A stretch of DNA of 64,000 bases from Lachnospiraceae bacterium (GTDB taxonomy: Bacteria > Bacillota > Clostridia > Lachnospirales > Lachnospiraceae). Every line of letters begins with the position of its first letter. Positions within the stretch are counted from its first letter, which is position 1. The stretch lies in NCBI GenBank assembly GCA_017622845.1, contig JAGAQJ010000031.1, positions 62,001 through 126,000 on the forward strand. The letters are read 5' to 3'. Shown here piece after piece: positions 6,616-34,877 of the stretch. The position numbers and the translations under genes are program-made. The notes below the pieces were generated by a model. It was not told the origin of the DNA. It searched no databases and saw only the letters and a list, made by a program, of their open reading frames with translations.

Positions 6616-8718
6616 ATGGCGCAAATTCATGTGCTGGATGATGCTACGATAGATAAAATCGCAGCCGGTGAGGTAGTGGAGCGCCCGGCAAGCGTGGTAA
6701 AAGAGCTGGTTGAAAATGCGATGGATGCGGGTGCTCGTGCGATTACTGTTGAGATTAAAGAAGGCGGCATCGAGTTTATCCGCGTGACAGACGACGGGGC
6801 AGGCATTGAGCATAATCAGGTTCGCAATGCCTTTATGAGACATGCCACCAGTAAAATCAGCTCTGTCGCTGATCTGATGAGTCTGCATAGTATGGGCTTT
6901 CGGGGTGAGGCGCTTTCCAGTATTGCCGCAGTGTCAAAGGTGGAGCTTGTCACAAAGACAAAGGGAGATATGACCGGAACACGTTTTTGCCTTGACGGAG
7001 CAAAGGAAACAGACTTTGAAGAAGTCGGCGCACCGGATGGAACGACGTTTATCGTGAGAAATCTGTTTTTTAACACCCCTGTCAGACGAAAGTTTTTAAA
7101 GACAGCCATGACAGAGGCAAGCTACATCACTGATTTGCTGGAGCATATGGCATTGTCAAGACCGGAGATTTCTTTTAAATATGTGATAAACGGTCAGACG
7201 AAGTTTTACACCAATGGCGACGGTGATATGAAAGCCATTATTTACCGTATTTTTGGCAGGGACATTGCTAATGAGATGATGGAGTTTCAGATTGTAGACG
7301 AGGATATCGTGCTGGATGGCTTTCTCGGAAAACCGACACTCAACCGTGCAAACAGAAATTTTGAAAATTATTTTGTAAACAACCGTTACATCAAAAGTAA
7401 AATAATCTCAAAGGCAATCGAAGAAGGATATCAGTCATACATGATGCAGCACAGATATCCATTTTGTGTGGTACACATTACTGTTCCGACAGAGAGCGTT
7501 GATGTCAATGTGCACCCAACCAAAATGGAGGTACGATTCTCGAACCAAAACGGCATCTATAAGCTGATTGCCGAAAATATTGCAGATTTTCTTTCCCGGC
7601 AGGAAATGATTCCAAATGCTGCACCTGGTCCGGAAAAAAAGCCTGCCAAAAAAGAAAAAGGAGCAGTAAAGCTTGAAGCGCCCGAGCCTTTTGAGAAGGA
7701 ACGAAAGCTCGCTGAGCGCGTGCCGAATATCTTAAAAGAAGACAATGGCTACAACAGAACTAAAAGTGACACACCTGTCAGTTCTGGAAGCAGCTATGAC
7801 CACTCAGGAGCCGCCAATCAGCATGAAAGAACGGGACAATTTCTGTTTCATAATAAGCTGTCTTACAATCGGGAGGAAAACGGAAAGGAACCGTTAATCG
7901 GCAGTGATGCTGACAATAATGACTTTTTTGTAGATAACAGGTCAAAGACTGCTCTGGCAGAGCTTGAACAGAAAACAAATTCTGAAATGCCGAATCCTGC
8001 TATTGGGAAAATACTCGGTACACCCCCAAAGGAAAGCGATGCACAGAATCTCGGCGTGATTAAAGCAAAAGAGCATATTATTGTTGAAAGACCGGAACAG
8101 TTAAATTTCTTTGATGAGAAGCTGCTGACAAGGGAAGCCAAACAGGAATACCGGATTGTCGGACAGGTATTTGACACATACTGGATTATCGAGTATCGGG
8201 ATAAAATGCTGATGATTGACCAGCATGCGGCGCATGAGAAGGTAAAATATGAGCAGATACTTAAGAAGGTGGAGAATAATGAAATCTATACGCAAATACT
8301 GACTCCGCCGGTGATTATCAACGTTACCCCCAAGGAGGCTGATTTAATTAACAGTTACACACAGTATTTTAAAGACTTGGGCTTTGACATAGAGGATTTT
8401 GGCATGAACGCATATGCTGTCAGAGGTGTGCCGCTTGACTTGTTCAGCTACAATATCAAGGAGCTTTTTGAAGAAATACTGACACAGATGTCAGAAAGTC
8501 CGGTGCGCGGCGTGCCGCAGATTATACGCGAAAAGATTGCTTCAATGGCATGCAAGGCGGCTGTAAAAGGCAATAATTCACTGACCTATGAGGAAGCAGA
8601 CCAATTGATCGAGCAACTATTAGAGCTTGAAAATCCATATAATTGTCCGCATGGCAGGCCGACGATTATTTCTATGTCAAAATACGAGATTGAGAAAAAA
8701 TTCAAGAGAATCGTGTAA
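6616..8718 (+). CDS. mutL: DNA mismatch repair protein MutL (endonuclease type)
   Basis: Couples mismatch recognition by MutS to strand incision. The N-terminal GHKL ATPase shows ENAMDAG, DDGAGI and GFRGEALSS. A variable linker occupies about residues 335-510. The C-terminal dimerisation domain contains DQHAAHEKVKYE, the DQHA-x2-E-x4-E metal site of MutLs that nick DNA themselves, plus a CPHGRP motif near the end. That predicts a MutH-independent repair system. The start is set at 6616 (MAQIHVLDD), 6 bp after GAGG. Longer readings upstream lack family similarity and run through an intergenic repeat copy. 700 aa. Confidence 0.96.
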   Translation: MAQIHVLDDATIDKIAAGEVVERPASVVKELVENAMDAGARAITVEIKEGGIEFIRVTDDGAGIEHNQVRNAFMRHATSKISSVADLMSLHSMGFRGEALSSIAAVSKVELVTKTKGDMTGTRFCLDGAKETDFEEVGAPDGTTFIVRNLFFNTPVRRKFLKTAMTEASYITDLLEHMALSRPEISFKYVINGQTKFYTNGDGDMKAIIYRIFGRDIANEMMEFQIVDEDIVLDGFLGKPTLNRANRNFENYFVNNRYIKSKIISKAIEEGYQSYMMQHRYPFCVVHITVPTESVDVNVHPTKMEVRFSNQNGIYKLIAENIADFLSRQEMIPNAAPGPEKKPAKKEKGAVKLEAPEPFEKERKLAERVPNILKEDNGYNRTKSDTPVSSGSSYDHSGAANQHERTGQFLFHNKLSYNREENGKEPLIGSDADNNDFFVDNRSKTALAELEQKTNSEMPNPAIGKILGTPPKESDAQNLGVIKAKEHIIVERPEQLNFFDEKLLTREAKQEYRIVGQVFDTYWIIEYRDKMLMIDQHAAHEKVKYEQILKKVENNEIYTQILTPPVIINVTPKEADLINSYTQYFKDLGFDIEDFGMNAYAVRGVPLDLFSYNIKELFEEILTQMSESPVRGVPQIIREKIASMACKAAVKGNNSLTYEEADQLIEQLLELENPYNCPHGRPTIISMSKYEIEKKFKRIV

Positions 8719-27933: not shown

Positions 27934-28560
27934 ATGAATACAATAATTACAATAGGACGTCAGTTTGGCTCCGGCGGACATGAAATAGGAGAAAAACTTG
28001 CAAATCATTATGGAATCAAGTATTTCGATAAAGAGCTGCTTTCAAGGGCAGCGCAGGAGAGTGGTTTTTGTGAGGAAATGCTCAAAAATCATGATGAAAG
28101 ACCGACCAATTCGTTTCTCTATAATTTAGTGATGGATACCTATACATTTGGTTACAATTCCTCATCTTTTGTAGATATGCCGATTAGCCATAAAGTTTTC
28201 ATGGCGCAGTTTGACACGATTAAGAAAATCGCAGAGGAAGAGCCATGTATTATTGTAGGACGTTGTGCAGATTATGCATTACAGGAATACAAAAACTGCC
28301 TGCATCTATTTATCCATGCCGACGAAGAAACCAAGATTGAGCGAATTAAAAAGAAATATAATATTGATGCTGACAAGGCACGTGAGATGATGAATAAGAA
28401 AGACAAACAACGTCAAAGCTATTATAACTATTATTCCACAAAAAAATGGGGGCGTGCAGATAGTTATGATTTGTCGATTAACAGTAGCATTCTTGGCATT
28501 GATGGCACAGTAAAGCTTATTATTCAGTACATAGAAGATTTTGAAAACAAGAATAAATAG
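27934..28560 (+). CDS. Cytidylate kinase-like P-loop protein
   Basis: 208 aa beginning ITIGRQFGSGGHEIGEKLA, the altered P-loop (G-R-Q-x-G-S-G-G) of the cytidylate-kinase-like family found widely in Firmicutes. These are thought to be nucleotide kinases, but the substrate is not established. Further blocks are KYFDKELL, CIIVGRCADY (about 104-113) and an Arg/Lys-rich lid near 145-160. GGGTGGGG precedes the ATG; the gene has its own promoter. Its TAG stop is followed, in the same frame, by the decayed intron-protein tail described next. Confidence 0.88.
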   Translation: MNTIITIGRQFGSGGHEIGEKLANHYGIKYFDKELLSRAAQESGFCEEMLKNHDERPTNSFLYNLVMDTYTFGYNSSSFVDMPISHKVFMAQFDTIKKIAEEEPCIIVGRCADYALQEYKNCLHLFIHADEETKIERIKKKYNIDADKAREMMNKKDKQRQSYYNYYSTKKWGRADSYDLSINSSILGIDGTVKLIIQYIEDFENKNK

Positions 28561-28775
28561 TATGCTTGTTTTAGCAGCTATGCAAGAAGATTATTAAAAG
28601 CATGCTGCGCATCATATTCTAAAGAAATATTCGCTGAAGCAGGGCTTATAAGCTGGCTTGATTATTATAATATGAGCGTCACGCTTTGAAGTTATATTGA
28701 ACCGCCGTATGCCGAATGGCACGTATGGTGGATATGACAGGGGAGAGAAAATCTCCCCTATTTGATTGTTTATAG
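28561..28775 (+). mobile_element. Remnant of a group II intron: maturase C-terminal tail plus domains V and VI
   Basis: Domain V is recognisable at 28701-28732. CCGCCGTA pairs with TATGGTGG over eight base pairs (G-T wobbles allowed), a 2-nt CG bulge follows, and TGCC/GGCA closes a GAAT loop. The position of the catalytic triad reads CGC. Domain VI follows as a perfect 8-bp hairpin (28739-28746 with 28752-28759) and then CTATTTGATT, resembling the CTACTCGATT branch-point end of intact introns. Just upstream, a frame ending at TGA 28687-28689 closes with GLISWLDYYNMSVTL, like intron-encoded reverse transcriptase C-termini. Nothing 5' of this is left: no RT motifs and no GUGYG end. The left boundary is uncertain. 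Confidence 0.72.
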
Positions 28776-29057
28776 ATATTTAAATTAGCAATGTTAGTTG
28801 CTACTGCGTAATTTTTCAATCAATATGATGTAATCCAATACCACATTTTTTTAATTCGAACCTTAAGTATTTTTACATATTCTTAATAAAGCCTACCTCC
28901 AAAAGACAGGAGTTTTCAAATAATTATTAGTAAAAGGTGAAACTTGCTATTTGTGAAACACTTTGCTGATACAAAACTGTTTACCGGTATAAGTAAATAG
29001 AGTGCCTAATATTTATTCGCAAAAGCATAGTTTAACGAATAGTTTGTGGAGATGAAT
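28776..29057. other. Gene-free AT-rich stretch
   Basis: About 280 bp between the intron remnant and the terminator of the permease gene. I see no reading frame, tRNA, strong promoter or clear palindrome in it. Confidence 0.5.
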
Positions 29058-29086
29058 AAAAGAACCTATCTGCCATAGGTTCTTTT
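29058..29086 (-). terminator. Terminator of the AI-2E-type permease gene
   Basis: Perfect arms AAAAGAACCTA (29058-29068) and TAGGTTCTTTT (29076-29086); T-rich on the - strand side and usable in both directions. Confidence 0.8.
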
Positions 29087-29101
29087 AAATGTGCAAGATA
29101 T

Positions 29102-30478
29102 TTACTCCAAGTGATCTTTGGAATCGCCCTTTTTCTCATCACTGTCCTTGGAAGGCTTGTTTTCATTCTCATCTGCATGAATTTTTTTTTCACGTTCTTT
29201 TACCACAATCTTGGAAATTTGAGGAATCGGTTTTTTGGCATTGTGCGGAAACTCTACAAATTCCTTAGACTTTGATTTATCATCAATGTATAACAATCTG
29301 AGATATTTTGACGTATCCTGAGGTAAATCTCTTGAAGCAAGCCGAGACTCAACCAGTGACTTTGTAAATGCAAATAAAATTGCAAATATCGGCACGCCTA
29401 CAATCATACCAAATATTCCCCAAATACCGCCAAATAATGTGATAGCAAATATTACCCAGAAACTCGATAATCCTGTTGAACTTCCAAGAATCTTAGGTCC
29501 AATAAAGTTTCCGTCAAGCTGTTGAAGAATAATGACAAAAATTAAGAAATAAACGGCTTGCAGCGGATCAATAAAAAGAATTAATAATATAGAAGGGATT
29601 GCTCCTAAAAATGGTCCAAAGAATGGTATAATATTGGTAACGCCAATGATTAGACTAATTAATACACTGAATGGCGTTCCAAGTATGCTTGTAACAATAA
29701 AGCAAATGATACCTATGATAATGGAATCCAAAATTTTACCTACAAAAAATCCACCAAATGTTTTATTGGCAAATCGCACATTACTGATAAAGCGATTAGC
29801 ACTATCGATTGGTAAAAATGCATATACAATCTTTTTGCCCTGAGCCGCAAATAATTCTTTACTTCCTAATACGTATATAGATATGATGAAGCCAATAATT
29901 AAATTCCAAAACTCCTTGAAAACAGAATATGCGCTCATTGATATAGCCATAATTACACTATTTAACTGGGGAATTAATTTGGAGTTTATAAAATCCTCTA
30001 AATCAATAGAATACTTATTAATTAAGTCCACAACATTTTTTTCTATTGCAGGGTTATCATTTAAAAGCTCTGAAATCCATGTGCTCAGCGTATTAATATA
30101 GCTTGGAAATTGTTCAATAATGGTGCGTATACTGTTATATATCTGAGGAATTACAATAGAAAAAAAGCCATATAATGCCCATAATACTACTACAACTGTA
30201 ACGATAATTGATAGAAATCTTCGCTGACTCTTTTTCCCCTCAATTTTTAAAGCTTTGTATATTGGTTTGAGAATGGTACGTTCTGTTGCATTGACAAGCG
30301 GGGTTAGTAAATATGCAAGAATCAATCCGTCAATAACCGGCATTAAAATCACAAAAATGTTATTTAATGCTGCTGAAAGGCTGTCTAAATGGAAAATTAC
30401 ATAATAACTTGCAAATGCTCCAAGAATTACAAAGAATGCTGTAAGCCCCCATTTTATATACTCCTTATTATTTTTCAT
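29102..30478 (-). CDS. AI-2E family transporter (PF01594-type permease)
   Basis: 458 aa with an N-terminal pair of membrane helices, a soluble central segment (about 105-165) and a C-terminal cluster of five or so helices. The hallmark is IIGVTNIIPFFGPFLGAIPS (about 280-299), followed by DGNFIGPKILGSSTGL. Members export diverse substrates (quorum signal, Na+, others), so the cargo is unknown. A charged C-terminal tail of about 90 residues rich in K, E and D is cytoplasmic. It is a lone - strand gene in the junction region. AGGAG lies about 14 bp before the ATG, a little far. Confidence 0.88.
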   Translation of the reverse strand: MKNNKEYIKWGLTAFFVILGAFASYYVIFHLDSLSAALNNIFVILMPVIDGLILAYLLTPLVNATERTILKPIYKALKIEGKKSQRRFLSIIVTVVVVLWALYGFFSIVIPQIYNSIRTIIEQFPSYINTLSTWISELLNDNPAIEKNVVDLINKYSIDLEDFINSKLIPQLNSVIMAISMSAYSVFKEFWNLIIGFIISIYVLGSKELFAAQGKKIVYAFLPIDSANRFISNVRFANKTFGGFFVGKILDSIIIGIICFIVTSILGTPFSVLISLIIGVTNIIPFFGPFLGAIPSILLILFIDPLQAVYFLIFVIILQQLDGNFIGPKILGSSTGLSSFWVIFAITLFGGIWGIFGMIVGVPIFAILFAFTKSLVESRLASRDLPQDTSKYLRLLYIDDKSKSKEFVEFPHNAKKPIPQISKIVVKEREKKIHADENENKPSKDSDEKKGDSKDHLE

Positions 30479-30553
30479 GCTATCAATCTACGCTCCTATC
30501 TTTTCTTTATTGTAAATATTTAGTTGGAAATAAATAAAAATTGTTATAAAATA

Positions 30554-30582
30554 ATTATAGCATATTATTTTCAGGATTTATA
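30554..30582 (-). promoter_or_regulatory. Extended -10 promoter of the permease gene
   Basis: On the - strand TGCTATAAT (the -10 hexamer occupies 30554-30559) with a poor -35 TATAAA 17 bp upstream (30577-30582). It overlaps the dif-like site. Confidence 0.5.
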
Positions 30583-30600
30583 CTAAAGTTTTTCGAAAAT
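30567..30600. other. Candidate dif-like recombination site
   Basis: Outer arms ATTTTC (30567-30572) and GAAAAT (30595-30600). The right arm is itself the palindrome TTTTCGAAAA (30590-30599), preceded by AG. Read on the - strand the order is TTTTCGAAAAACT, an A/T core, then CCTGAAAAT. By memory this resembles the atypical dif site used by streptococcal XerS, though the core here is about 3 bp longer. It lies 95 bp upstream of a XerS-like recombinase gene and at the gene-orientation switch. Confidence 0.4.
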
Positions 30601-30694
30601 AGTTATAACTTGTAATAGTTCGTTACTGTTCACTCCCAATCAGAAGCAGTGGGAATGGTGCGTCAAAAATAAAACAGATGAGGAGCAGTTTACA

Positions 30695-31756
30695 ATGGAA
30701 AAAATCAATAAAACAACTTATCATGATGAAATGAATAAAAAAAACATTGTCCATTTAAGGGAAATTCTCGATACTCTTCCACCGTTTTGCGGTCAGTATT
30801 TTAGAGGTATGCAGGAATATATATCGAGCAGAACAAGAGTTGCCTATGCTTATGATATACGTGTTTTTTTTGAGTATCTTCATGACAGTAATCCAATCTT
30901 CAGGAAAACGCCAATTAAGAAATATAAGCTGGATATTCTCGACAAAGTAACACGAATGGATATTGAAGAATATCTGGAGCACTGTGCGTATTATACAAAA
31001 GACGGCAAGGAATATATGAATGACGAACGTGGAAAAGCCAGAAAATTAGCCTCTCTACGAAGCTTTTACAATTACTTTTTCAGGAATGAAATGATAGAAA
31101 AAAATCCGGCAGCGCTTGTAAAAATGCCAAAGCTTCATGAAAAAGAAATTATCAGGCTTGATCCTGATGAGGTTGCAATACTGCTTGATACGGTTGAATC
31201 CGGGGAAAGGCTTACCAAAAAGCAGCTTCAATATCATGAAAAAAATAAACTGAGGGATATCGCTTTGCTCACGCTTATGCTTGGCACAGGGATTCGCGTA
31301 TCCGAATGTGTAGGACTGGATATACAGGATGTGGATTTTAAAAATAACGGTATTAAAATACGCCGAAAAGGCGGTTATGAGGCAGTTGTATATTTTGGTG
31401 AAGAAGTCGAGCTGGCACTTCTCGACTATCTCGAACAAAGAGAAAATATAATACCCGTTCAGGGACACGAAGATGCCTTGTTCCTATCAATGCAGAATAA
31501 ACGAATCACTGTACGTGCTGTTGAAAACCTTGTCAAAAAATATGCTTCTACGGTTACTTCCTTGAAAAAAATAACGCCTCATAAGCTAAGAAGTACTTAT
31601 GGCACTACTCTATACAGGGAAACCGGTGATATCTACCTTGTAGCCGATGTACTAGGCCACAAGGACGTAAATACCACCAGAAAGCATTATGCTGCCCTTG
31701 AAGAAGACAGGCGGCGTCAGGCAGCTAAAGCTGTTACGCTAAGAGAAAAGCGCTAG
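30695..31756 (+). CDS. Tyrosine recombinase, XerS-like
   Basis: 353 aa with all catalytic residues: R201 (GTGIRVSE), K225 (RRKGGYE), H296 and R299 (PHKLRST), H322 (LGHKD) and Y332 (RKHYAA). The N-terminal SAM-like core-binding domain spans about 25-165. Length and the RKGGY motif resemble single-recombinase XerS proteins more than the roughly 300-aa XerC/XerD pair. There are no phage, conjugation or cargo genes nearby, and the gene sits beside lexA at the replichore-like switch, so chromosome-dimer resolution is the favoured role (inference). AGGAG precedes the ATG by about 10 bp. The 137 bp after it hold short hairpins (31788-31804; 31817-31841) but no clear terminator. Confidence 0.88.
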   Translation: MEKINKTTYHDEMNKKNIVHLREILDTLPPFCGQYFRGMQEYISSRTRVAYAYDIRVFFEYLHDSNPIFRKTPIKKYKLDILDKVTRMDIEEYLEHCAYYTKDGKEYMNDERGKARKLASLRSFYNYFFRNEMIEKNPAALVKMPKLHEKEIIRLDPDEVAILLDTVESGERLTKKQLQYHEKNKLRDIALLTLMLGTGIRVSECVGLDIQDVDFKNNGIKIRRKGGYEAVVYFGEEVELALLDYLEQRENIIPVQGHEDALFLSMQNKRITVRAVENLVKKYASTVTSLKKITPHKLRSTYGTTLYRETGDIYLVADVLGHKDVNTTRKHYAALEEDRRRQAAKAVTLREKR

Positions 31757-31893
31757 AATCTCACCAATTTTTAAGGCAGGCGATGAAGGCGTATTGAATG
31801 TACGCTGACTGGGGGTAATGCAAAAAATCGGCGAAATTGCATGGTTTGAGGCGTGTTTCCCCTGTATACCGACGCTAAGAAAATAGATTAAAA

Positions 31894-32271
31894 TCAGTTT
31901 TCTGAAGAAGAAACAAACTCTGATGAGTAATATGGTATTGTGATATAGCTTCCGGAAACAATATTATCGGAAGTTAAAGAATTCATTTTCTTTACTTCAC
32001 TAATGTAATCATAGGTGCTTTTGTAATGTTCTGAATCAATGTTATCATTTGCTATTGACCACAAAGTATCCCCTTTTGATACTTCAATACTCTTATAGTA
32101 TTTGTAAGAAGGCTGATGCTCAAAATCGTTTGCCTGTGTTGAAAAAGACATAAATAATATTGCTGTAACAATCACAATAAAAACAGCCAGTATTATAAAA
32201 TTGCGCCTTACCTGCTTTTGACGTCTCAGCCGGTTATCAAATGCTCTTGCTGCATAATCTCTTTTTTCCAT
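31894..32271 (-). CDS. LysM-domain membrane protein, YneA-like SOS cell-division suppressor
   Basis: 125 aa: a basic N-terminus, one membrane helix (about residues 25-44) and a C-terminal LysM domain (SKGDTLWSIANDN onward, about 66-118). Small size, helix-LysM order and divergent placement next to lexA match Bacillus YneA, which halts division during the SOS response. It has a perfect consensus promoter covered downstream by three LexA-type half-sites. The start is the ATG at 32271 with AAGGAG at 9 bp; the frame stays open upstream across the operators but is not coding. Assigned by context and architecture, not by residue identity. Confidence 0.82.
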   Translation of the reverse strand: MEKRDYAARAFDNRLRRQKQVRRNFIILAVFIVIVTAILFMSFSTQANDFEHQPSYKYYKSIEVSKGDTLWSIANDNIDSEHYKSTYDYISEVKKMNSLTSDNIVSGSYITIPYYSSEFVSSSEN

Positions 32272-32301
32272 AGTATGTTTCTCCTTTGTGCCATATAATA
32301 G

Positions 32302-32341
32302 CGAACGTAATTTCCGAACAATTATTCCGAACAACTGTTTA
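32302..32341 (-). promoter_or_regulatory. Three tandem LexA-type boxes in the yneA-like leader
   Basis: CGAAC at 32302, 32315 and 32328, each exactly 13 bp apart, each followed after 4 bp by a degenerate right half (TTTCC, ATTCC, GTTTA) compared with the Firmicutes consensus CGAAC-N4-GTTCG. They lie just downstream of the -10, so bound LexA would block initiation or clearance. Confidence 0.65.
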
Positions 32342-32349
32342 TGCTTTAG

Positions 32350-32378
32350 ATTATACAGAACAAAGGTTTGACTGTCAA
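32350..32378 (-). promoter_or_regulatory. Perfect-consensus sigma-A promoter of the yneA-like gene
   Basis: On the - strand TTGACA (32373-32378), 17 bp, TATAAT (32350-32355). Confidence 0.85.
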
Positions 32379-32397
32379 CATATTTTTTAAAAATTTG

Positions 32398-32424
32398 CGA
32401 ACATTTTTTCTGAATATATGTTTG
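32398..32424 (+). promoter_or_regulatory. Two phased LexA boxes over the lexA promoter
   Basis: CGAAC at 32398 and TGAATATATGTTTG at 32411-32424, again 13 bp apart. The second is a good match to CGAAC-N4-GTTCG and overlaps the -35 of lexA, predicting autorepression. Confidence 0.65.
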
Positions 32425-32450
32425 CATTATTTGCAATTATGTGTTATGAT
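32422..32450 (+). promoter_or_regulatory. lexA promoter
   Basis: TTGCAT (32422-32427), 17 bp, TATGAT (32445-32450). Confidence 0.65.
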
Positions 32451-32474
32451 AGATTAAAAGGAGGCGTTTATTAT

Positions 32475-33092
32475 ATGGCATATGGAAAAATAACAGCAAA
32501 ACAGAAAGAAATTTTGGAATATATTAAAGCAGAAATACTCAAAAAGGGATATCCTCCATCAGTTAGAGAGATCTGTGAAGCAGTAAGCTTAAAATCAACT
32601 TCTTCTGTTCACTCACATCTTGAGACGCTTGAAAAAAACGGATACATCAGACGAGATCCGACCAAGCCACGTGCAATTGAAATTATGGATGACAGTTTTC
32701 AGATGGTAAGACATGAGATGACAAGTATTCCTATCGTGGGAACAGTTGCGGCTGGTCTGCCTATTCTTGCAGAGCAGAATATTGAGGGCTATTTCCCTAT
32801 TCCGGCTGAGATGGTACCTGCAGGTGAATCATTTGTGTTAAAGGTTAAGGGTGATAGTATGATTAATGCAGGTATCTTTAATGGAGATAGTATCTTTATA
32901 CATGCATGCAATACTGCTGAAAACGGAGACACAGTTGTTGCATTGGTAGATGACTCTGCAACTGTTAAGACCTATTACAAAGAAAATGGACACTACAGAC
33001 TTCAGCCTGAGAATGATACAATGGAGCCTATTATATTAGATGAGGTAGAAATTCTTGGAAAAGTGTATGGTGTATTCCGCTTATACCACTAA
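32475..33092 (+). CDS. lexA: SOS transcriptional repressor LexA
   Basis: Represses DNA-damage genes and cleaves itself when RecA filaments form. 205 aa: N-terminal winged helix (about 1-70, SLKSTSSVHSHLETLEK recognition region) and C-terminal S24 peptidase domain with the scissile A93-G94 (VAAGLP), nucleophile S128 (KGDSMI) and general base K165 (ATVKTYY). AAGGAGG at 32458-32464 supports the ATG at 32475. Divergent from the YneA-like gene, with operators on both sides of the shared spacer. Confidence 0.97.
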   Translation: MAYGKITAKQKEILEYIKAEILKKGYPPSVREICEAVSLKSTSSVHSHLETLEKNGYIRRDPTKPRAIEIMDDSFQMVRHEMTSIPIVGTVAAGLPILAEQNIEGYFPIPAEMVPAGESFVLKVKGDSMINAGIFNGDSIFIHACNTAENGDTVVALVDDSATVKTYYKENGHYRLQPENDTMEPIILDEVEILGKVYGVFRLYH

Positions 33093-33284
33093 AATTAAAT
33101 GTGAAGTTTCGTAATGCATCTTTGGTTCTTTCTGAGTTTTGGATTATACATATTTCTGTCAAAAGTATGATGCTTTATGGAAATCACGTTCTTAAGACAG
33201 AATCTTTAACAGCATATTCAAAAATGCGAAAGAATCTACATTTTGGAGTTAATGTCACGAACTTAATACCCAAAGCATAAACTT

Positions 33285-33345
33285 AACACACCTCTGCCTG
33301 TTTCAAAAGAAATAGGCGGAGGTGTGTGTGTTTGCGTTTTCTTCT
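33285..33345 (+). terminator. Terminator after lexA
   Basis: AACACACCTCTGCCT (33285-33299) pairs with AGGCGGAGGTGTGT (33314-33327) with one wobble, followed by a T-rich tract. It probably also serves the remnant on the other strand. The 190 bp between lexA and it show no gene. Confidence 0.7.
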
Positions 33346-33348
33346 TAT

Positions 33349-33641
33349 TTACTTCCATACAATCTCTCCCAAATGTTTCCCAAATGCTTCCAGATGCTCC
33401 TCATCCATGGCTCCAGCATGAATATCTGCATAAAATCCATTACTTCGAATCCATGCAATGAGTTTTAAGTCTGTGATTGGTCCTATAATCGAACCGCCCA
33501 GTCATCTTCACATATAGGATGATCTGTTTGAATATGTTCCGGTTTGATCACAGAAATCCTCACCTGTCCAGAGACCTGTTATTCATCATAACAGCCAAAA
33601 TAAATGTTGTTTCTATAAAAATAAAATCCTTCCTTTGTCAT
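33349..33641 (-). pseudogene. Broken small gene of unknown family
   Basis: On the - strand an ATG at 33641 opens MTKEGFYFYRNNIYFGCYDE and meets TAA. The same frame continues QVSGQVRISVIKPEHIQ through to CEDDWAV before a stop. A shift of frame then gives GGSIIGPITDLKLIAWIRSN and runs on to a terminal LGEIVWK with TAA at 33349. The three pieces read as one protein-like sequence of about 97 codons, disrupted by one nonsense codon and one frameshift. An AGGAAATGG precedes the start. I do not recognise the family. It could be an artefact of sequencing error if both lesions are wrong calls. Confidence 0.6.
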
Positions 33642-33662
33642 ATTACACCATTTCCTATCTCC

Positions 33663-33705
33663 AAAAAATTGCCAGCAGACACACCCATAGGTGGTCTGTT
33701 GGCAA
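33663..33705 (-). terminator. Intrinsic terminator (second of two) of the rplU-rsfS transcript
   Basis: TTGCCAGCAGAC (33669-33680) and GTCTGTTGGCAA (33694-33705), followed on the - strand by six T residues. Confidence 0.8.
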
Positions 33706-33736
33706 ATAAAAGCGGTGTTAAGCTATAACACCGCTT
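33704..33736 (-). terminator. Intrinsic terminator (first of two) of the rplU-rsfS transcript
   Basis: Perfect 11-bp stem AAGCGGTGTTA (33710-33720) with TAACACCGCTT (33726-33736), followed on the - strand by TTTATTT. Two terminators in tandem end the - strand block. Confidence 0.8.
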
Positions 33737-33773
33737 GACGAAAGCTCAACCAAAGCAACACACAATGGACGGC

Positions 33774-34136
33774 TTACCTTGTTATATTTTTTAAATCAAC
33801 TGTTTTACCATCGCGCCACATACGCTCCAAATCATAAAATCCACGACTTTCCTTATCAAATATGTGAACAAGAATGTCATTACAATCTAAAAGAATCCAA
33901 TTTGCAGTGTTGTAGCCTTCAATGTTTTTGGGGTGTATGCCGTCAGCAGCAAGCTTTTCTTCTACATTGTCTGATAAAGCCTGAATCTGGCTCCTATTCA
34001 CTCCGTTTGTTATTACAAAATAATCTGCTACAGTTGATATCTCACTGATATCTATAACTTGAATATCTTCTGCTTTCTTGTCCTCAAGTGCATCAACAAT
34101 TATTTTTAAAGCGCTGTTTAAATTACTCAAATACAT
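33774..34136 (-). CDS. rsfS: Ribosome silencing factor RsfS
   Basis: Binds L14 and blocks subunit joining in starvation. 120 aa with the family core ADYFVITNGVNRSQIQALSD (about residues 37-56), the NWILLDCNDILVHIF strand (about 79-93) and FYDLERMW. AAGGAGG is only 3 bp before the ATG but 9 bp before a TTG two codons later, so a TTG start at 34130 is possible. Last gene of the ribosome-assembly block before two terminators. Confidence 0.94.
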   Translation of the reverse strand: MYLSNLNSALKIIVDALEDKKAEDIQVIDISEISTVADYFVITNGVNRSQIQALSDNVEEKLAADGIHPKNIEGYNTANWILLDCNDILVHIFDKESRGFYDLERMWRDGKTVDLKNITR

Positions 34137-34213
34137 TTTCCTCCTTAAATAATATGTAGGTAAAAATAAGAATTCTGAAATATTGCAAATAAATGTCTTT
34201 ATGCTGCTGCAAT

Positions 34214-34236
34214 ATATGTTGTCTGCGTCATAATGT
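34214..34236 (-). repeat. 23-bp direct repeat, copy downstream of yqeK
   Basis: Identical to 34323-34345, which lies inside the 3' end of yqeK. In the same frame this copy would read IMTQTTY and then stop soon after, suggesting a partial duplication of the yqeK tail. The rest of the 162-bp yqeK-rsfS spacer has an imperfect hairpin near 34265-34290. Confidence 0.7.
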
Positions 34237-34298
34237 TTATAAATAAAATTGTGCTGTCTGTGCTAAAAAGTCTTGGTAGGACCTTTTACGTTGTCACA

Positions 34299-34877
34299 TC
34301 ACAAAGTTTTTACATAGCTGTCATATGTTGTCTGCGTCATAATGTCAATTGGGTTTCCCTTCATCTCAAGATATTTCAGGGTATTTAATAAAATTTTCTC
34401 CATCGCTCTGTCAATATCTATAAAAGCAAGCTGACGAATCTCATCAAGCTCTGGAATTGGTCTGCGACCGGGTTCGATATAATCTGCAATAAACACTATT
34501 TTTTCAAGCAGCGACATGTTTGGATGTCCCGTCGTGTGCCATGTGATTGCCTGCAAAATGTCATCATCGTTGATGCCGAATTTCACCTGTGCTATATATG
34601 CGCCTACCTTGCCGTGCAGTAAATAGGGGTGTTCAGCTTCAAACTCACTGTATGGAATATTATTCTGGTCGCATATTTTTAATTTCTTGTCATTATCCAT
34701 GCATTTTGCACAGTCATGAAGAAGTCCTGCAATTTCTGCTTTTTTTATAAAGTTAGAATTTCGGGTATCCGGATTATAGCGCATTGCCATAGCAACGGCT
34801 GTATATGCCACTCCGAGCGTATGGTGATATCGGTCCTTTGTCAGATGCTTCTTTAAATATTTTTTAATCTTCTTCAT
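34299..34877 (-). CDS. yqeK: HD-domain nucleotide hydrolase YqeK (symmetrical Ap4A hydrolase family)
   Basis: Members cleave diadenosine tetraphosphate to two ADP. 192 aa with His at RYHHTLGVAYTA (about 16-27), the HD motif GLLHDCAK (about 51-58), H-x-G-K (LLHGKVGA) and the AITWHTTGH block, finishing with VFIADYIEPGR. It overlaps nadD by 14 bp, giving tight coupling. The last coding bases contain one copy of a 23-bp direct repeat. Confidence 0.93.
   Translation of the reverse strand: MKKIKKYLKKHLTKDRYHHTLGVAYTAVAMAMRYNPDTRNSNFIKKAEIAGLLHDCAKCMDNDKKLKICDQNNIPYSEFEAEHPYLLHGKVGAYIAQVKFGINDDDILQAITWHTTGHPNMSLLEKIVFIADYIEPGRRPIPELDEIRQLAFIDIDRAMEKILLNTLKYLEMKGNPIDIMTQTTYDSYVKTL

Follow-up and report, generated by a model that had tools for sequence, protein, structure and literature searches.

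The window that we analysed, a 64,000-nucleotide stretch of a Lachnospiraceae genome, contains the gene for a tyrosine recombinase and, 1.65 kb upstream of this gene with another gene in between, a 34-bp palindromic site. Both lie in a region in which GC skew and gene orientation flip (Table 1). The recombinase has the complete R-K-H-R-H-Y set of catalytic residues that is expected of a dif/Xer dimer resolution system, and these six residues show no variation across 39 aligned sequences. In a Pfam scan of seven window proteins, we find a pseudouridine synthase, a cytidylate kinase-like protein, an AI-2E transporter, a LysM protein, LexA and RsfS in addition to the recombinase, and no mobile-element gene besides the recombinase among the seven. 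A first-pass annotation of this DNA had described a 353 amino acid tyrosine recombinase with a full catalytic set, no mobile-element neighbours and a position at an orientation switch, and our results bear out each of these statements. The AlphaFold model of the recombinase (pLDDT 83.7, pTM 0.58) matches Xer structures loosely over the whole chain (TM about 0.4, rmsd above 10 Å in the top rows of the comparison) and adds only a predicted fold class.

Table 1. Features of the window and, below them, of viral loci with repeats around an integrated element and of genomes in which gene and site are far apart
Feature	Position	Strand	Description
Tyrosine recombinase, XerS-related, 353 aa	30695..31756	+	Pfam Phage_integrase 2.1e-33; catalytic R201 K225 H296 R299 H322 Y332
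Proposed dif site, 34 bp, 14+6+14	29011..29044	+	conserved island; one exact assembly match; matrix score 49.4
Left arm of 34-bp site	29011-29024		ATTTATTCGCAAAA
Central hexamer of 34-bp site	29025-29030		GCATAG
Right arm of 34-bp site	29031-29044		TTTAACGAATAGTT
Replication terminus region (GC-skew/gene-orientation switch)	28500..33500	.	local cumulative maximum 29.0 kb; plateau, overall maximum 33.0 kb
Viral locus L402	2352-2380 with 8588-8621		29-bp repeat made up of 8 flanking bp, left arm, hexamer and 1 further base; 6228 bp from full site
Viral locus L394			26-bp repeat made up of 6 flanking bp, left arm and hexamer; 5752 bp from full site
Viral locus L417	1486-1519 with 7571-7604		18 bp (four hexamer bases and right arm) repeated 6085 bp away
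Genome G144	gene 438.5 kb; site 495.4		skew peak 495
Genome G024	gene 7.7 kb; site 36.4		skew peak 37
Genome G099	gene 140.6 kb; site 131.0		skew peak 131
Genome G087	gene 43.5 kb; site 56.0		skew peak 58; contig end 59.4

Relationship of the Recombinase to XerS

The best NCBIfam model for the recombinase is XerS (NF003462), which it matches with 194 bits, below the cut-off of 267 bits; proteins of two other genomes of the family reach 196.8 and 215.5 bits. In a tree of 58 sequences, 38 of them are split from XerC/D (100/100); these are XerS, the proteins of the family and two smaller groups. A clade of 27 (98/96), made up of 26 family proteins and one order-level relative, stands beside a XerS clade (100/99). 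The long branch of one divergent family protein (G317) falls outside the 27-member clade, and a site of the same design (ACTTTTTCGCAAAATTCTAGTTTTACGAAAAATG) lies upstream of that protein's gene. By its place in the tree, the recombinase is a sister of XerS, and it is not XerS by the curated model. The earlier label “XerS-like” agrees with the nearest tree clade; the protein scores below the XerS cut-off and falls outside the XerS clade.

A Conserved 34-bp Palindrome

When window positions 28000-34500 are compared with relatives by blastn, one conserved island stands out in a poorly alignable intergenic stretch (28560-29102). This island is the 34-bp site, ATTTATTCGCAAAAGCATAGTTTAACGAATAGTT, which is the only place in the window with a matrix score of 0 or more. 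A first word search around 29 relatives had missed it, the top upstream words looking coding. The pattern TATTCGCRAAA-N6-TTTWACGAATA, with at most 2 mismatches, occurs in 68 of 150 genera of the family (one genome per genus), compared with 1 of 150 for its reversed control. There is a single place in 65 of the 68 genera, and some of the places found are not on the contig of the xer gene. A matrix built from 71 loci shows that the three bases past each pattern end, AAC ... GTT, which were outside the search pattern, are conserved at 77-95% per base. The inner arms are unequal (CGCRAAA versus TTTAACG read on the opposite strand). The site is short, palindromic, non-coding, essentially single-copy and located at a GC-skew switch, as described for dif/Xer systems in general (PMC9765430).

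The assembly of the source genome has one more place at 3 mismatches or fewer, on contig C8. This weaker copy (AACTATTTGAAAAAGAAATGTTTTGCGAATAGTT, G000:C8:16039-16072; L005, L380; matrix score 35.9) is found about 170 bp upstream of the gene for a 408 amino acid integrase and downstream of an ORF that resembles a rolling-circle replication protein; no skew switch is seen at this copy.

The first-pass annotation had placed the dif-like site elsewhere, at a palindrome (ATTTTC...TTTTCGAAAAT) that we find at 30567-30600, 94 bp ahead of the ATG. A pattern derived from this string has a single occurrence in the assembly. We looked for its 17 arm bases in up to 400 bp of upstream DNA at 23 loci with proteins of 80% identity or more; the closest match at each locus carries 3-8 mismatches, and the shuffled control (100 shuffles of the window's own upstream) has a mean of 4.8 and a minimum of 3. 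We rejected this palindrome as the recombination site because it is not conserved in relatives, the close ones matching it no better than shuffles do. The palindrome at 29011-29044, a different one, is present in 18 of these 23 loci. The other five have just 58, 382, 1777, 1966 and 2634 bp of upstream DNA, and in the two or three longest of them the site may be truly absent or diverged.

Distribution and Linkage of Gene and Site

The XerS-like gene is found in 147 of 150 genera of the family at E ≤ 1e-20, a number that falls to 137 when the threshold is E ≤ 1e-60. In the genus of the source genome, 27 of 38 genomes have it at E ≤ 1e-60, among them 16 of the 18 with at least 90% completeness and at most 5% contamination; the other 11 genomes (2 of the 18 good ones) have no match at this threshold. 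Outside the family the recombinase is rare: 9 of 249 genomes of the phylum have it at E ≤ 1e-40, and of these nine, four belong to the family (the source genome included) and one to the order.

We listed the xer places of 130 genera and obtained longer flanks for 99; the other 31 were judged from the 150-genus pattern search alone. A site was accepted at 88 of the 99 xer loci, 58 of them by the matrix (score of at least 5; 495 shuffled loci reach a maximum of 3.7). Because the matrix missed diverged sites, a palindrome rule for the 400 bp upstream was added with shuffled and downstream controls (pass rates of 3.4% and 6/98, respectively), and it accounts for the other 30. As many as 57 of the 58 best matrix matches fall upstream of the xer gene. 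A match downstream of the gene in genome G103 was taken as chance because a palindromic sequence, below threshold, sits upstream there. The site lies within 250 bp upstream of the gene in 69 of the 99 loci, usually at 25-250 bp. Of the 11 loci without an accepted site, one has just 118 bp of upstream DNA and two belong to genomes in which the site is found farther away: in G088 it is on a different contig (0 mismatches) and in G058 it lies about 12.6 kb upstream (2 mismatches). A separate set of 80 named loci includes 51 that score 8 or more with the matrix. Twelve of the 80 were re-examined, and six low scorers among them have a diverged palindrome 66-140 bp upstream; at one of the twelve, L113, no site is seen within 10 kb upstream.

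The Site Marks the Skew Switch

In six genomes, the peak of the cumulative GC skew is 0-5.5 kb from the site, and in four of the six it is within about 1 kb. For example, in G085, a genome in a single contig of 3.83 Mb, the cumulative peak is at 1870 kb and the site at 1870.6; skew is positive in each of ten 20-kb stretches sampled before 1870 kb and negative in each of ten sampled from there on. The single-contig genome G046 (6.93 Mb) has ten positive and ten negative stretches, and its peak and site are 5.5 kb apart. Does the peak follow the site or the gene? In four genomes chosen for gene-site separation, where the two are 10-56 kb apart (Table 1), the skew peak tracks the site and not the gene, these peaks being local ones within 21-64 kb of DNA. 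In the window, the skew has its local maximum close to the site, and the plateau that extends beyond it to the overall maximum counts against reading the locus as a dimer resolution module. As in XerS/difSL, the proposed recombination site is beside the gene at the terminus.

Canonical Xer Proteins and dif

A standard XerC/XerD pair with a canonical dif site elsewhere in the genome had been named as the finding that would speak against a single recombinase. In the source genome we find an XerD homologue, no XerC above the cut-off and no Bacillus-type dif at 3 mismatches or fewer. This genome has 15 Phage_integrase matches, 13 of them above the cut-off. The XerD homologue (RipX-type, above the XerD cut-off; L001, G000:C63:13587-17099) lies beside a 230 amino acid ORF, which we take to be SpoIIM-like. 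Many genomes of the family have an XerD homologue as well, and in many the XerS-like protein is joined by a further XerC-model match (about 1e-77 to 1e-93). In 13 of the 48 gene-bearing family genomes of the scanned set, mostly drafts, there is a single XerC-model match at E ≤ 1e-40; this match is the XerS-like gene by coordinates in 8 of the 13 and by E-value alone (1e-45 to 1e-48) in 5.

The family resembles organisms with XerC/XerD and a canonical dif in the tyrosine recombinase fold, the 6-bp central region and the terminus position. It differs in that none of the 56 family genomes scanned has an XerC above the curated TIGR02224 cut-off (12 of 24 others do) and none has a Bacillus-type dif at 3 mismatches or fewer (6 of 24 outside; Fisher p-value 4e-4), the dif consensus being an insensitive one that finds dif in just those 6 of 24 outside genomes, although the contrast is clear.

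Paired Changes in the Arms

To keep the comparison of the outer arms from being circular, we chose sites within 350 bp upstream on the strength of the inner 20 bases alone; 40 of 99 loci exceed the 99% shuffle threshold. The outer 7 arm bases are complementary at 81.1%, compared with 58.5% when whole right arms are swapped; none of 5000 trials reaches the observed value, in a test that ignores kinship. Examples of arm pairs that are altered yet matching are ATCACTTCG...CGAAGTGAT, ATCTATCGGTTAAA...TTTAACCGATAGAT and ATAACGCCGATAAA...TTTATCGGCGTTAT. The outer arms change together, which fits a single reader for both arms; such symmetric change between genera is as expected if one protein reads both half-sites.

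Phages and Integrated Elements at the Site

In a collection of viral contigs, 26 stretches have the exact form CTATTCGCRAAA-N6-TTTWACGAATAG and at least 120 have a looser form, while the reversed control patterns have no exact and no looser match. Among 93 viral loci (L394-L486), a close xer gene is present in 3 and a distant one in 3; another count, of loci that encode proteins related to the Zot-like as well as to the replication proteins of filamentous-phage-like contigs, gives 7. By Pfam, Zot exceeds the cut-off in L399; in L402 and L417 it falls short, and there the REP_ORF2-G2P replication protein is above the cut-off. Around three integrated elements, each about 6 kb long, the full site stands on one flank and a half site on the other; filamentous-phage genes are present in two of the three (Table 1). 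The systematic repeat search required the full hexamer and returned 3 of the 93 loci, one with an inverted repeat (L466); L417 was spotted by inspection. The provirus junctions break inside or at the edge of the central hexamer. From these repeats, the elements in L402, L394 and L417 have the appearance of insertions made by Xer recombination, with an exchange inside the hexamer or at its border. CTX-type phages are known for such Xer-mediated insertion. Filamentous phages seem to insert into the 34-bp site.

A Probable Single-Recombinase Module and Its Alternatives

The window very probably contains a one-recombinase chromosome dimer resolution module of the Lachnospiraceae. This reading builds on the gene and the site, their family-wide linkage, the symmetric arm changes, the skew-switch position that is independent of the gene, the canonical alternative that we did not find and the junctions in or at the edge of the hexamer. 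Against it stand, besides the plateau in the window's skew, the XerD homologue of many family genomes, the 11 of 99 loci at which no site was accepted, the genomes of the genus that lack a gene match at E ≤ 1e-60 and the weaker copy of the site on contig C8. A one-recombinase module in a member of the Clostridia had been put forward in the first-pass annotation; the XerS-related recombinase, the linked palindrome at the skew switch and the lack of a canonical XerC/dif agree with that proposal, and the site chosen for it was wrong. In the mechanism that we propose, a chromosome dimer would carry two 34-bp sites as direct repeats, and each site would be bound by a pair of identical XerS-related subunits, each of them on one 14-bp arm. 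Using Tyr332, the tetramer would make its cuts where the 6-bp central region meets the arms and would then exchange strands, which would yield monomers at the terminus. By analogy with XerS, XerH and XerCD, we infer that the protein binds and cleaves the site, that it acts without a XerC/XerD partner and that FtsK controls it. For the family as a whole, it is likely that dimers are resolved by one XerS-sister recombinase acting on a co-evolving 34-bp palindrome, that the XerD homologue is dispensable and that filamentous (perhaps other) phages attach there.

Could the XerS-like protein instead stand in for XerC and pair with the XerD/RipX homologue on the 34-bp site? The source genome has an XerD above the cut-off, many family genomes have the second XerC-model match and the inner arms are unequal, all of which would suit two proteins. 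However, 13 of the 48 gene-bearing genomes lack a second match at E ≤ 1e-40 and the outer arms co-change in a way that fits one reader, and we regard such a pair as improbable.

The palindrome might also be a transcriptional operator of the xer or lexA genes and not a recombination site, given its usual position shortly upstream of the xer gene and the presence of LexA among the window neighbours. We reject this reading, which has very little chance of being correct, because the skew follows the site: its peak stays with the site in the four genomes where the gene is 10-56 kb away. Moreover, another gene separates site and xer in the window, the site is present on phage contigs and integrated elements are bordered by half sites. 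It is harder still to believe that the gene encodes an integrase, domesticated or from a mobile element, that uses the site for attachment and has nothing to do with dimer resolution. The tyrosine recombinase fold is common to integrases and many viral contigs have the site, but the gene occurs in 137 of 150 genera, the site is at the skew switch, the scanned neighbours include no element genes and only 3 of the 93 viral stretches have a close copy of the gene.

If the single-recombinase module is real, an abundant family of gut anaerobes gains its dimer resolution site, and a clade-wide bacterial single-recombinase Xer system joins XerS, XerH and XerL. The naturally diverged recombinase/site pairs are numerous and would be material for a DNA-recognition code. 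The site may also serve as a sequence marker near the skew peak, and it is a likely insertion point of filamentous phages in these hosts.

Comparison with Known Single-Recombinase Systems

The published single-recombinase systems are XerS, XerH, XerA and XerL (PMC5357621, PMC2731167, PMC9765430). XerS/difSL of streptococci and lactococci is similar in having a lone recombinase of about 355 amino acids and a palindromic site just upstream, at the terminus (PMC5357621). The family site, however, is nearly symmetric and 34 bp long, with AACTATTCG-type arms around a 6-bp centre, whereas difSL has 31 bp, an 11-bp central region and the arms TTTCCGAAAA / TTTTCTTGAAA (PMC5357621). XerH/difH of Helicobacter and Campylobacter also has a single recombinase of similar size and a site that often adjoins the gene (PMC5357621, PMC2731167), but the difH arms are different (TGAAAAC...TTTTCAAA; PMC2731167), and among PDB sequences XerH matches our recombinase more weakly than XerD or XerA does. 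XerL/dif of the Legionellales, reported in 2022, is similar in its description: that system is clade-wide, was found late, uses a single recombinase and long uninterrupted inverted repeats, and has a mobile element that inserts at dif; it differs in belonging to an order of Proteobacteria and in a gene-site distance above 400 kb in L. pneumophila (PMC9765430).

A 2011 survey of dif sites gave predictions for 97 of 100 Firmicutes with an XerCD-based profile, and its main text makes no mention of Lachnospir, Eubacterium or phytofermentans. No report of a Lachnospiraceae Xer/dif system is among the literature matches listed. We read the system as a previously undescribed Xer/dif subsystem, its recombination activity being something we infer.

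XerS itself and its relatives also turn up in other genomes. In a genome whose XerS scores 557 bits, a difSL-like sequence is found upstream. In two other families of the phylum (f26 and f76; L369-L375), XerS is above the curated cut-off in large genomes of 4.6-7.3 Mb, and no obvious difSL is seen by eye in the 320 bp upstream. Another family (f9; L287-L289) has XerS-related proteins that are 36-37% identical to the window protein, together with XerC-model matches near or over the cut-off in the same genomes.
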